Under the pieces are notes generated by a model. That model did no database searches, was not told where the DNA came from, and saw only the letters and a program-made list of their open reading frames with translations. The position numbers and the translations under genes were made by a program. A stretch of 64,000 bases of DNA from Pseudoflavonifractor sp. An44 (GTDB lineage Bacteria > Bacillota > Clostridia > Oscillospirales > Oscillospiraceae): positions 1 through 64,000 of the forward strand of contig NZ_NFIH01000006.1 of NCBI RefSeq assembly GCF_002161675.1, read 5' to 3'. Shown here piece after piece: positions 17,141-23,110 of this stretch (position 1 is its first letter; each line of letters begins with the position of its first letter).

Positions 17141-17161
17141 CCCCTCGCGGGGTTGACTTTT
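17132..17161 (-). terminator. Terminator of the recombinase remnant
   Basis: A 13-bp stem (aaaagtcaacccc and complement) with a 4-base loop. It overlaps the -35 region of the GntR promoter. Confidence 0.6.
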
Positions 17162-17242
17162 ACGTTATTTCTTATATAGAGGCAAAGTACAGTTTACAAG
17201 GAACTACACAGGGTAATGGTCTGACGGGAGGTGTGCCGCCCG

Positions 17243-17755
17243 TCAGATTTTCCATGTAATGTTCAAGCTGTCGCTTGTGGCGGCAACGGTGGTAATCATC
17301 AAATCCACCACCCGCCGCTTGTCATCAAAGGATACATTGTCCCATGTGTCGAGGTAGCCGGAAATCTGATTGACCTGTTCCGGGCTGATGGCTCCCACCG
17401 TCAACTCGGCTATCTGCTTCACAAGTTCCTGTTTGCGTCCGTCCAGTTCCGCTATCTTCACATTCACATAGGAGAGCAGGACATTGTTTGCGCCCGTCAG
17501 ACTGTCCACCAGCTTTTCAATCTCGCTGTCCACATGGAGAAGCTCCACTTGCAGGGCGGCGATTTTGGGATTGGCCTTTACCGCTTTCTTCCTGCCCGTC
17601 AGCGTCTTGTGCTTTTCCAGCTTCTTCACCATCTGCTGGTAAACCACCGCTTCCAGTTCGGAAGTGATGATTTTCCCACAGCCCGGACAGCTTTTATTGT
17701 CCAGCCGTTTTGTGCAGCGGAGATATTGCCTGCCGGACGGATTGAAGATACTCAT
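17243..17755 (-). pseudogene. C-terminal fragment of a second large serine recombinase
   Basis: The 170 remaining codons carry a degenerate recombinase zinc ribbon (YLRCTKRLDNKSCPGCG), a coiled coil (residues about 60-125) and the C-terminal tail ending SLNITWKI that is typical of clostridial large serine recombinases. The catalytic resolvase domain is absent and no SD precedes the first ATG. Sequence and zinc spacing differ from the recombinase relic at 6842-7648, so the two come from different elements. Confidence 0.85.
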
Positions 17756-17906
17756 AAGTCTACACCTAAATGACCGCCCGTCCCGTATATCCGAAAGGTG
17801 GGAAACCGGCTTAAAAAATAGGCTATTTCCACGCTCTCGGAATTGTGGTATAAGTACAAAGAGACAAAGCGGGATTTAGTGAAAGAAAGCAGAGATGAGG
17901 AATACT

Positions 17907-18860
17907 ATGAGAAAGAGAAAAAGAGTTATGAAAATATTTTTTACTGTGATTGTTGCAATGCTTATATTGCTGCTTATTATATACATCAATCATCAAATCC
18001 ATTTAAAAGGAGAAAATGAATTGCGTTTGCCGTTAGGAAAGATGGTTGAAGTTGATGGACACAATATGAGCGTCTATATTGAAGGCACAGGTGATACAAC
18101 GCTTGTTTTTATGTCGGGTGGGGGGACTTGTTCTCCCATACTGGATTTCAAATCTCTCTATTCTCTTTTAAGTGATAAATATCAGATTGCCGTTGTAGAA
18201 AAATTTGGATATGGTTTCAGTGATGTTGTCGATAAAAACAGAGATATTGATTCCATACTTGAAGATACAAGGGCAGCGCTTACATCAGCGGGATTAACCG
18301 CACCTTATATCCTATGCCCGCACTCTATGTCAGGGCTTGAAGCATTATATTGGGCGCAAAAATATCCTGATGAGGTGTCTGCAATTATTGGGCTTGATAT
18401 GGCAGTTCCAGAGTATTATGGAAGCATGAACATAAATATTCCGCTTATGCGTATTGCAAGTTGGGCGGCAAACATAGGTGCCACTCGTTTTATTCCTGGG
18501 CTTTCGGACAGCGATGCCGTAAAGTACGGCACATTATCGGAGAAAGAAAAAGAAATCTATAAAGCAGTTTTCTACAGTCGGACGGCAACTGTAACTATGA
18601 TAAATGAAACTGAATGGGTGAAGGAAAACGCTGAAACAGTGCATAACATGGGAACCCCGCAGCTTCCAATGCTGTTATTTATTTCGGACGGTTCTGGCGG
18701 AACGGGATTCGATAAAGAAACATGGCGGGAAATCCCTATAGAATATATATCACAGATTGATGAAGGGGAATATATAGAATTAAACTGCCCGCATTATGTT
18801 CACGACTACGAATACAAAGCAATAAGTGAAAGTATCATTGAATTTCTATCGAAACATTAA
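17907..18860 (+). CDS. Membrane-tethered alpha/beta hydrolase
   Basis: This 317-residue AT-rich gene product has a basic N-terminus and one hydrophobic helix (about residues 9-28), then an alpha/beta hydrolase domain facing outside. The nucleophile elbow is HSMSG, an acid is plausible in GLDMAVPEY, and the His in NCPHYVHDYEY. The start at 17907 is chosen because GAGG lies 6 bp before it; an in-frame ATG at 17895 is possible. It resembles cargo hydrolases on mobile elements of gut Firmicutes. Substrate unknown. Confidence 0.8.
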   Translation: MRKRKRVMKIFFTVIVAMLILLLIIYINHQIHLKGENELRLPLGKMVEVDGHNMSVYIEGTGDTTLVFMSGGGTCSPILDFKSLYSLLSDKYQIAVVEKFGYGFSDVVDKNRDIDSILEDTRAALTSAGLTAPYILCPHSMSGLEALYWAQKYPDEVSAIIGLDMAVPEYYGSMNINIPLMRIASWAANIGATRFIPGLSDSDAVKYGTLSEKEKEIYKAVFYSRTATVTMINETEWVKENAETVHNMGTPQLPMLLFISDGSGGTGFDKETWREIPIEYISQIDEGEYIELNCPHYVHDYEYKAISESIIEFLSKH

Positions 18861-18894
18861 CTTCCCATTTATCGGGCAGACAAGGAGGGAGAGC

Positions 18895-19695
18895 ATGGAA
18901 CTATCCATACAAGAACGGCTGAAAGGCCTGCGTGTGGAGCGTGGCTTGACGCTGGAGCAGCTTGCGGAGCAGACCCATCTCTCCAAGTCTGCTTTGGGCA
19001 GTTATGAGGGGGACAAGTTCAAAGACATCAGCCACTATGCCCTTATCCAGCTCGCAAAGTTTTACGAAGTGACCGTTGATTATCTGCTGTGCCGTTCTGA
19101 GACAAAAAATCACCCAAACGCCGATTTTGCAGACCTGCGTTTGAGTGATGACACGATAGAACTATTGAAAAGCGGGCTGGTGGACAATTCTCTTTTGTGT
19201 GAGCTGGCGACACACCCGGATTTTCCCCGGCTCATGGCCGACCTTGAAATCTATGTGAACGGCATAGCGGGAAAGCAGGTGCAGAGCGCAAACGCCATTG
19301 TGGACGCTGTGAGCGCAACGATTATGAAACAGCACAATCCCGGCTTGACTGACCCGCAGTTAAGGCAGCTTATCGCCGCCCATATTGACGACGACAGCTT
19401 TGACCGCTATGTGATACAGCAGGACATAAACAAGATAGCCCTCGACCTGCGGGAAGCCCATAAGGACGATTTTTTCAGCGTCCCGGAGGACAACCCACTG
19501 GAAGATTTCTTGCAGACCGCAGAGGAAACCACCAGAGAGGACAGCGACCCGGAGCAGGCGGCGATGGCCTTTATCTGCAAGCGGCTCAAACTGAACTATG
19601 GGAAACTGCCAGAGGAAGAAAAGAAGTGGCTGAAAAAGATTGCGCAGAAGTCGGATTTGCTGAAAAATCCAAACCCGCAGCGGGGGAGAAAGTAA
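18895..19695 (+). CDS. XRE-family regulator typical of conjugative elements
   Basis: This 266-residue protein has an N-terminal helix-turn-helix (IQERLKGLRVERGLTLEQLA, then HLSKSALGSYEGDKF) and a long C-terminal region (DDTIELLKSGLVDNSLLCELATHP onward) common in regulators on clostridial ICEs. The start at 18895 has a strong SD (aaggaggga); upstream in-frame codons belong to the end of the hydrolase gene. It probably controls element genes now lost. Confidence 0.88.
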   Translation: MELSIQERLKGLRVERGLTLEQLAEQTHLSKSALGSYEGDKFKDISHYALIQLAKFYEVTVDYLLCRSETKNHPNADFADLRLSDDTIELLKSGLVDNSLLCELATHPDFPRLMADLEIYVNGIAGKQVQSANAIVDAVSATIMKQHNPGLTDPQLRQLIAAHIDDDSFDRYVIQQDINKIALDLREAHKDDFFSVPEDNPLEDFLQTAEETTREDSDPEQAAMAFICKRLKLNYGKLPEEEKKWLKKIAQKSDLLKNPNPQRGRK

Positions 19696-19745
19696 GAGAG
19701 CGACAAATTCTAATTTGTAGGACTCAATAGAAAAGGAAATTAATT

Positions 19746-20477
19746 ATGAAATATAAAGTGTTGGCGATATGTAAATCATTATTATGGTGTTTTGTGGTTT
19801 TGTTATTTCCAATTGCATCAGGAACAATATCGGTAATTTTAGCTTTAGATACTGTTACAACACTATTTTTACAAGGAACTTTTATGGCATTAGCTTTAAT
19901 TCCCCCTACTATTTTTGTTTTTAGAGGTAAGTGGCAATGGAGAGAGGTTGGATTTGCAAAGTTTGATTTTAAAGGTTGCAAAAGAGTGTTATTTTTTATC
20001 CCTCTTCTTGTTATTTTTCTTCCAGTAGCCATTAAAGGATTCTATGTAAAATCAATTGGATACGTGATAGGAAGTTTGTTTCTGTACCTGTTTGTAGGAA
20101 TATCGGAGGAAGTATACTTCAGAGGGATAATACCCCGATATCTAAAAGAAGAATTTTCGACGAAAGGAATTGTGTTATGGTCTACGCTTATTTTTGGCAT
20201 TGGGCATGTTGCTACCGCATTCACAGGAAGTAATGTATTTGAGATTGCTTTAACCGTACTGAATGCTTTTATTTTTGGTTGGCTTGCAATGGAGATGACT
20301 ATAATATCCTCCAATATCATTCCTGTATTTCTGGTGCATTTTCTCTTTGATTTTGAAACTAAAATCGTAGTGATGAACGGCAAAGAATTGTTGATTGCGG
20401 AGATTGTTCGAGGAATAATGATGTTCATTATAGCCAGTTGGTTTGCTGTTGTTATATATAAGCAAAGAAAGCGTTAA
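19746..20477 (+). CDS. CPBP-family intramembrane metalloprotease
   Basis: This 243-residue membrane protein has about seven helices and the three CPBP (type II CAAX protease, Abi) motifs: EEVYFRG (EExxxR), FGIGHV, and HFLFD. Members process membrane peptides or serve in bacteriocin self-immunity. Its place on a mobile element suggests a cargo immunity role, which is inference. AT-rich, with a weak SD (aaaaggaaat) before the ATG. Confidence 0.88.
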   Translation: MKYKVLAICKSLLWCFVVLLFPIASGTISVILALDTVTTLFLQGTFMALALIPPTIFVFRGKWQWREVGFAKFDFKGCKRVLFFIPLLVIFLPVAIKGFYVKSIGYVIGSLFLYLFVGISEEVYFRGIIPRYLKEEFSTKGIVLWSTLIFGIGHVATAFTGSNVFEIALTVLNAFIFGWLAMEMTIISSNIIPVFLVHFLFDFETKIVVMNGKELLIAEIVRGIMMFIIASWFAVVIYKQRKR

Positions 20478-20505
20478 ATTTGAATTTGTGGAGGAAAAAC
20501 GTGTT

Positions 20506-21033
20506 ATGAATTTAGAGGATTTAAGAATAGATTGTGCTATCAAGCAAAAGAGAGGTATTCATTTTATTTCAGCTTCTATTGTGATTTGGCTTTTGGTGAT
20601 GATGGTACAATTCTTAGATTTACCGATTCTTACCAAGAATTTGCTAACATTTTGTTGTACCGCACCACTATTGCCTTTAGCATTTTTGATGTCCAAATTA
20701 TTAAAGATCCAATTTCAGGACAAAAGCAATCCACTGAATAATCTAGGTATATTATTTTCGATAAATCAAATCTTATATTTATTGATTGCAATGTGGATTT
20801 ATCCAACAGTACCAGAAAAAATGCTAATGGTTATTGCTATGATTTTTGGGGCGCATTTGTTACCATATAGCTGGTTATATAAATCAAAAACTTACATGAT
20901 TATGTCAGTTCTTATCCCTATAGCTTCATTGATTGTTGGATGTAATTCTACACGTTTGATATTAGCGTTAATGATGCTTGTTTTTGAAATTATATTTACA
21001 GCATTGCTCATAATAGAAAATAGAAAAATATAA
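20506..21033 (+). CDS. DUF7010-like four- to six-helix membrane protein
   Basis: This 175-residue protein begins MNLEDLRIDCAIKQKRGIHF and has about five to six membrane helices, matching an uncharacterised family of small membrane proteins in Firmicutes. SD gtggagg precedes the ATG at 20506. It follows the CPBP gene by 28 bp and is probably co-transcribed with it. No functional motif seen. Confidence 0.7.
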   Translation: MNLEDLRIDCAIKQKRGIHFISASIVIWLLVMMVQFLDLPILTKNLLTFCCTAPLLPLAFLMSKLLKIQFQDKSNPLNNLGILFSINQILYLLIAMWIYPTVPEKMLMVIAMIFGAHLLPYSWLYKSKTYMIMSVLIPIASLIVGCNSTRLILALMMLVFEIIFTALLIIENRKI

Positions 21034-21284
21034 TGTCTTGCACAACAACTCCCAGTTTATCGGGGAAATAGCAAAGCCACAAAAGGGCTTCCCGCCCATT
21101 TCAATTTTGAGGAAAAGAATGCTCCAAAATGAAAGAGAGTGCGGCCAAGCACTTTGAGGGATTGGCCGCCTTGTCTGCTTGTTCAGCGGGACAGTGGGCA
21201 GCGGTCAAGGCCGGGTGTAAACCCGTTCATTTCAGCCTTGACGGTTGCCCGCTGTCCTGCTACTTTTCCGGGAGTGTGGCCACA

Positions 21285-21309
21285 ACTTCGGGACACTTTG
21301 TCCACAAGT
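21285..21309 (+). other. Possible transfer-origin-like hairpin in the non-coding end of the element
   Basis: The 585 bp from 21034 to 21618 hold no convincing gene but several dyads. One (acttcgggaca ctt tgtccacaagt) is followed by a GC-rich nick-like run (cgtaggacgaggggggg). In Tn1549-type conjugative elements a comparable region lies by the mobilisation genes. With no relaxase here the call is tentative. Confidence 0.3.
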
Positions 21310-21540
21310 CGGAGCGTAGGACGAGGGGGGGCTTTCATATACCTGCCGCCGTTCTTTAAAAACAGCCCGGCTTTTCGCTCATTCCCATTCGCGAAAATTC
21401 AGCCTGTTTTCCTGCCGGAGCAAACGGGGCGCATAAAGCACCGCACCCCGTTTCCCCCGTCAGCCACGCCAGCAGGTATAACACACTACACTTTGCAAGC
21501 AAAGTCGTGTGCCAAAGGGAGAACCCCTTTGGAAACCCCA

Positions 21541-21596
21541 GACAACAAAACAGGCGGTATGCTGCCCTCTCCGGGAGCATACCGCCGTTTGTTGTC
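21541..21596. terminator. Large hairpin near the right end of the element
   Basis: A stem of about 20 bp (gacaacaaa ... ggcggtatgct paired with agcataccgcc ... tttgttgtc) with a 12-nt loop. It may insulate the element end. Confidence 0.6.
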
Positions 21597-21665
21597 AGCA
21601 ACCCGTTTCACGGTCTGCGTGTAGTTCCTTGTAAACTGAACTAAACTAAATGCGAAACTAGTTTT

Positions 21666-22619
21666 TCAAAAATGGGCATTCACCATAGATATCTCAACAA
21701 TCTCAGATAAATATGCATCTTTTTTTATTAAATTCTTCAATGTTGCGCAAAAATTTCTTACTTCATTTTCCTTAGCCAATTGTGCTACTTCATCTTCTCC
21801 GAGATAATCTTGCCCCAATACCAAATCTACCGCTGCAAAAGAGGCACGGAGCGTCTGTGGAACATCCATAACTCTCAAAACTCCAGTTGCATCAAATGTA
21901 TCTTTATCCATTAAAATACCCATTGTCCGTGTACTTCCATTAAATGACACCCTGCACAATCCATTGTGTTTGGCATATCTATCTGCCCAGCTCTGCCAGT
22001 CTACATAAACATCATCCGGAAGTACAACTTCAATGCGCAGATTTTTCTTCTTTTCATCATAACTCCACCCATCTATGAAGTTGTCTTTCCTATCGAGTAC
22101 AGCATTTTTTATTTGACACAAAAAGTTAGTATAATATCCCATAGCTAAGCTTGTAGATGGAAGAAGCTGAATGCGGTTTTTCCGGCATTCTCTCTCAATT
22201 GAGCGATCCACCTGTTTACAGCAAGCCTGAATAGATTTTTTATCATGAAACAGAGCTACTGTTACTCCTAATAAATCTGTAGCAATTCTGCACTCCTTGT
22301 GAACTAAGAAAAAACTTCTAGCTGGGGAAAGAATCCCAGCATATAGGCCAAATTCCAGATAAACATTATCACGTGGTGCATACTTGGTGCTTCCATCTTG
22401 CTTGCGTATGACAAAGTCATCTTTTCCGCCAATATAAACTGCGTAATCGAAAATTATCGCCTTTCTAGCCAAGGTCTCATAGGTCGTTGCATTTAAGTCA
22501 AAGAAACAATTTGACCACACAACACACTCATATTTTCGACCTAAATAGCGAGAAACCACCTCTGCAAATTCCTTGCTTTCTGCAGAGGAACCAATAAAAA
22601 TTCGTGGCTTCACATTCAT
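21666..22619 (-). CDS. TIR-STING protein, probable CBASS NADase effector without a cyclase neighbour
   Basis: This 317-residue protein has an N-terminal TIR-like domain of the predicted nucleotide-binding type: RIFIGSSAESKEFAEVV at the start, VVWSNCFFDLNATTYETL, and RDNVYLEFGLYAG with the likely catalytic Glu89. From residue 152 a second domain begins LPSTSLAMGYYTNF and continues LRIEVVLPDDV and DVPQTLRASFAAVDLVL, which I recognise as the prokaryotic STING fold. In known systems the STING part binds cyclic di-GMP and makes TIR filaments that destroy NAD+, killing infected cells. The partner CD-NTase is absent within this window. The start at 22619 has SD gggag; AT-richer than neighbours. It lies 27 bp from the mobile-element end. 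Confidence 0.72.
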   Translation of the reverse strand: MNVKPRIFIGSSAESKEFAEVVSRYLGRKYECVVWSNCFFDLNATTYETLARKAIIFDYAVYIGGKDDFVIRKQDGSTKYAPRDNVYLEFGLYAGILSPARSFFLVHKECRIATDLLGVTVALFHDKKSIQACCKQVDRSIERECRKNRIQLLPSTSLAMGYYTNFLCQIKNAVLDRKDNFIDGWSYDEKKKNLRIEVVLPDDVYVDWQSWADRYAKHNGLCRVSFNGSTRTMGILMDKDTFDATGVLRVMDVPQTLRASFAAVDLVLGQDYLGEDEVAQLAKENEVRNFCATLKNLIKKDAYLSEIVEISMVNAHF

Positions 22620-22693
22620 TACATTTTCTCCCAAACCGCAAAATTAAATATTCAGAATAAACACTACTCTAACTTTACTTATTTCTTATCAAA

Positions 22694-23110
22694 TCATTTG
22701 CGCCGCAGCTTATTGAGATACCCCTCTAATATTAAGGTAGCGGCCACGGCGTCCACATTCTTTTTGTGCTGTTTCATCTTCTTCCCCGAGGCGTGGAGAA
22801 TCTGGTGGGCCTCAATGGTGGTGCGCCGCTCGTCCCACAGGTGTACCTCCATCCCCGTCACCTCCTGAAGCTGCTGGGCAAAGGCCCGGTACAGCTCTGC
22901 CCGGGGGCCCTCCGTGCCGTCCATGTTCCGGGGAAAGCCCATGACCAGCTCCTCCACCCGGTGCTCGCTTACCAGCTTGCCGATCTCCTGGGCCACCTGG
23001 TCCGCCTTCCGGCTGTGAATCACCGTGGTGAATCCCGCCAGCATCCCCAAGGCATCGGAAATGGCCACCCCGGTCCGGGCGTCTCCGTAGTCCACCGCCA
23101 TCACTCGCAT
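22694..23110 (-). CDS. ruvX: Putative pre-16S rRNA nuclease / Holliday junction resolvase-like YqgF
   Basis: This 138-residue protein has the RNase H-like fold of YqgF: MAVDYGDARTGVAISDALG with the first catalytic Asp, VMGFPRNMDG, WDERRTTIEA, and the last Asp in KKNVDAVAATLILEGYL. It processes the 16S rRNA 5' end and was once thought a Holliday resolvase. The start at 23110 has SD aggagg; the longer open frame to 23353 runs through the divergent promoter and is not coding. Normal length. Confidence 0.93.
   Translation of the reverse strand: MRVMAVDYGDARTGVAISDALGMLAGFTTVIHSRKADQVAQEIGKLVSEHRVEELVMGFPRNMDGTEGPRAELYRAFAQQLQEVTGMEVHLWDERRTTIEAHQILHASGKKMKQHKKNVDAVAATLILEGYLNKLRRK

Follow-up and report, generated by a model that had tools for sequence, protein, structure and literature searches.

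The segment at positions 17186-21642 of the window (the whole stretch of 64,000 nucleotides from Pseudoflavonifractor sp. An44 analysed here) is very probably a copy of a gut-bacterial integrative mobilizable element (IME) that has undergone internal deletion, a reading to which we assign a probability of roughly 0.93. Elements that keep their att sites while their integration and transfer genes are lost have been termed CIMEs (PMC5704250), and by this definition the window element is a CIME, one that has also kept its oriT. Its family, its boundaries, the deletion and the intact cis sites emerge from sequence comparison with relatives in other genomes. The features of this 4457-bp element, as delimited by that comparison, are listed in Table 1.

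Table 1. Features of the window element, with ends, cores and oriT as defined by comparison with relatives.
Feature	Position in window	Strand	Domain or basis
AA crossover core, left junction (attL)	17184..17185	.	AA in 24/24 left ends; empty site; restored tnpA frames
Left end, AGTA + 20-mer, one attP arm	17186..17209	+	
Serine recombinase C-terminal 170 aa, stub without catalytic domain	17243..17755	-	
Deletion junction, TAAG common to both sides	17755..17758	.	Comparison with intact copies
Conserved block, separates the VLP and XRE genes of intact elements; begins AAGTCTACACC	17755..17853	+	
Alpha/beta hydrolase, cargo	17895..18860	+	PF00561
XRE-family regulator, IME backbone gene	18895..19695	+	HTH_19
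CPBP (Rce1-like) intramembrane protein, cargo	19746..20477	+	PF02517
DUF7010 membrane protein, cargo	20506..21033	+	PF22765, E 4e-64
oriT, pMV158/MobV1 type, hairpin ACTTTGC-TT-GCAAAGT then GTAGTGTG/TTATAC	21476..21505	-	
Right end, 20-mer + AACT, other attP arm	21619..21642	-	
AA crossover core, right junction (attR)	21643..21644	.	Empty site, family ends, tnpA frames

An earlier note, made from the letters of this DNA alone, had described a decayed element with exact 20-bp inverted ends and a serine-recombinase remnant. The exact 20-mer CAGTTTACAAGGAACTACAC is indeed present in two inverted copies, at 17190-17209 (forward strand) and 21619-21638 (reverse strand), and no such pair arose in 100 shuffles. 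The element exceeds these 20-mers by 4 bp on either side, and the extended arms (17186-17209 and 21619-21642, 24 nt each) are 96% complementary. The perfect match over 20 positions is partly accidental, because the family-typical left arm, CAGTTTACAAGGGACTAC in 20 of 24 left ends, has a G where the window carries an A. At its right end the window element reads AACT, in place of the consensus ACCT of nearly all other copies, and this substitution could weaken attR. No further copy of the 18-base repeat core was detected in the 2.75-Mb draft host genome, even allowing two mismatches.

Searches with this core, scanning one genome per species, returned at least 117 stretches of other genomes, mostly from Clostridia and in few cases from other bacteria, and nearly all of them correspond to one end of a single IME family. 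With few exceptions they have the form host-TT-AGGT-CAGTTTACAAGGAACTACACGCAGACC and represent the right end; the corresponding form of left ends is host-AA-AGTA-CAGTTTACAAGGGACTACACAGGG, and the host DNA outside these strings differs between copies. The full-length versions with relaxase and recombinase that the earlier note had proposed to look for were located through the repeat core. Intact members comprise L015 (6982 bp), L061, L156, L192 and L196-L201, and from the left end they encode a 503-aa serine recombinase, a 71-aa protein, a MobV relaxase, RepA_N, a Cys-rich VLP protein and a divergently oriented XRE regulator, followed by variable cargo. L197 presents no RepA match, and the regulator in L061, L156 and L192 is only ~30% identical. 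In L015, the serine recombinase (PF00239, PF07508, PF13408) and MobV (NF041497, PF01076) are accompanied by an oriT, and no conjugation pore genes were seen in its 7 kb. With their own integrase, a relaxase and an oriT, and without pore genes as seen in L015, the intact family members are IMEs; the window element, encoding a C-terminal stub with no catalytic domain, has no integrase of its own. Matching pieces also occur in phage records, but these are linear scaffolds from stool that lack annotation and are not demonstrated to be complete elements.

Cargo of note was also observed in two members of the family. A single 7622-bp member, whose cargo is a Mef(A)-like macrolide efflux transporter, is present in L196, L198, L199, L200 and L201 with 0-1 mismatches, and this near-identity at five sites, in five genomes and different genera, points to very recent spread. 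Campylobacter jejuni tet(O) plasmids hold, inside a plasmid gene, a member with aadE (L156, 508-8461), which the plasmid records annotate merely as single genes.

The latter insertion provided an exact empty site. The gene interrupted by the element in the C. jejuni plasmid pTHJ056_1 is uninterrupted in pAR-0413-1, and the right flank of this insertion was found in 169 Campylobacter plasmid records. The empty site reads GATATTAGTAACATTTATAAT, the left junction GATATTAGTAA-AGTACAGTTTAC and the right junction GTAAACTG-ACCTAACATTTATAAT. The two junctions have TAA alone in common, and since the T varies in other copies, the core is reduced to AA. Five copies inserted within tnpA genes, which we take to be IS200/IS605-like from the conserved start of the protein, agree with this assignment, as the reading frame is recovered (...SLAHTKWNCKYHIVFAPKYR) once their flanks are joined across one AA. 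A core at AC, as might be placed from the ends alone, is ruled out by the empty site. On either side, targets have TTT at a distance of 11-13 bp from the core. In L015, L027, L152, L197 and L199, the family has repeatedly inserted at a single position close to the beginning of tnpA genes, which are a multi-copy target. From these junctions we infer an attP of the form CCTTGTAAACTG-ACCT-AA-AGTA-CAGTTTACAAGG, a near-palindrome centred on AA. Once such a site is integrated, its arms come to lie inverted at both ends of the element and resemble terminal inverted repeats. No attP circle junction or excised circle was detected in the viral, plasmid and phage collections.

These data bear on the possibility that the window holds a transposon of the DDE type, with genuine terminal inverted repeats, which would contain the recombinase fragment by chance. 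The exact inverted ends do resemble those of transposons, but a transposase is absent from the window element, the serine recombinase of intact members is encoded next to the very same end, and the two junctions share only the AA core, with no target duplication of the DDE type. The empty site and the intact copies refute this reading, which we regard as exceedingly improbable. Of the two roles suggested in the earlier note for the repeats, that of binding sites holds, the repeats being the probable attP arms of a serine recombinase, and that of a different kind of transposon end finds no support. The same note had proposed that empty sites with junctions away from the 20-mers would refute its reading; in the Campylobacter plasmids, the junction of this family member falls at the repeat ends and does not refute it.

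The family empty site, the restored tnpA frames and the AA core together place the boundaries of the deleted IME copy at 17186-21642. In agreement with this placement, its two flanks taken together score higher than any of the 3121 AA positions in the window against a target profile built from 136 other family flanks. The empty allele of the window site would read TATAGAGGC-AA-ACTAAATGCG, and the junction generated if attL and attR were joined by excision would read GTAAACTGAACT-AA-AGTACAGTTTAC. This empty allele was not found in relatives from the genus; the interval that separates the GntR-side genes from ruvX (window 17161-22697) is present in six species with different DNA each time. Across these six genus relatives, the interval constitutes a hypervariable spot inside an otherwise syntenic region. 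Directly to the right of attR, on the reverse strand, lies a gene for a TIR-STING protein (Cap12-type CBASS effector, 21666-22634); no SMODS (PF18144) cyclase domain was detected anywhere in the draft host genome, and this effector therefore looks orphan.

Comparison with intact copies also defines what the window element has lost. Positions 17190-17758 correspond to the left end plus the C-terminal part of the recombinase in intact copies (97% to L172/L192), and 17755-17853 match the block intervening between VLP and XRE. The two matched parts overlap by TAAG and are separated by 3.4-3.6 kb in intact elements, which marks a single internal deletion of that size in the window element. This event removed recombinase residues 1-333, the 71-aa gene, the MobV relaxase, RepA_N and VLP, leaving attL, a dead recombinase stub, the hydrolase, XRE, CPBP and DUF7010 genes, oriT and attR. 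With both arms and AA cores present and the integration and transfer genes missing at the junction, the segment has the make-up of a CIME. The suggestion of domestication in the earlier note is left without support, as the transfer genes went in this one deletion and attL, attR and oriT are intact. The stub is 97% identical to residues 334-503 of the full-length recombinases in L156/L192 and is still an open frame, with a dN/dS of ~0.16 versus L192, suggesting that the deletion could be young compared with the divergence of the family. A search of 394 genomes of the order revealed the TAAG junction in none of the others.

Instead of random loss at a microhomology, the deletion might reflect recombination specific to AAGTCTACAC, a string at which further copies, truncated or chimeric, also break. 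L212 (7881) and L247 (2117) start at the AAGTCTACAC base beside unrelated host DNA, and L061, L151 and L192 are alike up to AAGTCTACAC and then switch exactly to a different regulator module. Few such junctions are available, however, the relaxase nick is located elsewhere, and no enzyme is known for recombination at this sequence. Moreover, L212 and L247 come from two species of one genus and are found close to one and the same host locus, so that their breaks may not be fully independent. We consider this mechanism possible, but tentative and somewhat unlikely. The AAGTCTACAC breakpoint (window 17755-17765) sits between the mob and regulator modules. No relative spans the junction at the empty target of the host gene in L212.

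The gene content of the deleted IME copy agrees with that outlined in the earlier note (recombinase C-terminus, hydrolase, XRE regulator, CPBP protein and small membrane protein), but the regulator does not belong to the cargo, where it had been placed. It is a backbone gene encoded near the right end of many family members, with 94% amino acid identity to L155, and it is intact, with a dN/dS of ~0.1 versus relatives. The hydrolase has an 85% amino acid relative in L194/L213, in another genome and not beside an IME of the same family. The segment with the CPBP gene (19712-20489) is flanked by 7-bp direct repeats AATTTGT (19712-19718 and 20483-20489) and is missing from L212, a related copy in another genus, indicating gain or loss of the whole segment in one piece. 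The DUF7010 gene of L212 is codon-for-codon identical to that of the window. An immunity-like cargo had been proposed from the CPBP family name alone; PADLOC returned no match for the hydrolase, CPBP or DUF7010 proteins, and nothing tested supports a role in immunity or defence. Rfam searches returned no match.

The MobV relaxase MobM cleaves at GTGTG/TT (PMC5090054), and a hairpin followed by GTG(T/C)G/TT, as expected of a MobV1 oriT, is present in the window element and in the family. The motif is conserved in 79 loci, a few of which are overlapping copies of the window, and the hairpin presents paired stem changes in L197 and L036. In the window the nick is predicted between 21482 and 21481. 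This conserved pMV158-type oriT, with its paired stem changes and its location near the right end, rules out AAGTCTACAC as the nick site. The family oriT resembles the MobV1 oriT of pMV158 and IMESag-rpsI in its inverted repeat followed by a GTGTG/TT-type nick sequence (PMC5090054), but it lies near the right end, far from mobV, rather than directly upstream of it.

Taken as a whole, the arrangement of intact members suggests that the 503-aa serine recombinase would excise and integrate the DNA by crossing over at the AA dinucleotide, and that MobV would nick the pMV158-type oriT, situated close to the right end, to allow transfer by way of the secretion system of a helper. Intact members share with the Tn4451-type IMEs (PMC5704250) the plan of a serine recombinase, a MobV relaxase, low target specificity and a 2-bp core; they differ in their AA core and in the additional RepA_N, VLP and XRE backbone, and the likeness concerns how the elements work. 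In its way of working, the family also resembles the multi-targeting large serine recombinase Cp36 in its many targets, AA core and AT-rich flanks (PMC10083194); Pfam searches found no DUF4368 match in the family recombinase, a contrast with Cp36. The window element has att sites at both ends and deleted integration and transfer genes in common with CIMEs (PMC5704250), but it derives from an IME instead of an ICE and retains an oriT. Given the low specificity of integration, there is also no tandem accretion at a tRNA or gene end.

The cognate recombinase is absent from the draft host genome, in which the best full-length relative has 29% identity, and the two MobV proteins of the host are ~27% identical to the family MobV and have another motif, TAGTGGGTTA, in their vicinity. 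Judging from the draft, the element is hence stranded in this genome, and it would presumably be immobile unless a cognate recombinase and relaxase came in trans. Since all cis sites remain, excision and transfer with a cognate helper would be possible in principle. The 1583-bp L152, with a recombinase stub, a methyltransferase gene, an oriT and both arms, is a second, independent att-cargo-oriT-att derivative. It might therefore be proposed that deletion derivatives with attL, oriT and attR form active non-autonomous cassettes moved by full-length relatives, and that the window copy arrived already deleted. All three sites are intact in the window and L152 occupies a tnpA hotspot, but the deleted window form was found at no second place (none in the 394 genomes of the order, one copy in the host genome), L152 was seen once in plasmids and the host has no cognate recombinase, making such an arrival unlikely. 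That the window element and L152 belong to a living class of non-autonomous IMEs, which the enzymes of full-length relatives excise, transfer and insert, is similarly doubtful; if true, it would make them a MITE-like layer among the serine-recombinase elements of gut Clostridia.

The deleted IME copy in the window is mostly an ordinary case, now explained. Its analysis accounts for the apparent long terminal inverted repeats of serine-recombinase elements as the probable two arms of attP, and provides the exact ends, core and oriT of a very widespread IME family, whose cargo also includes aadE in Campylobacter plasmids and, in near-identical copies from different genera, a Mef(A)-like pump. 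The remnant further indicates that cargo can stay flanked by the cis sites needed for movement, and surveys requiring a recombinase or relaxase gene would consequently miss such potentially movable cargo.
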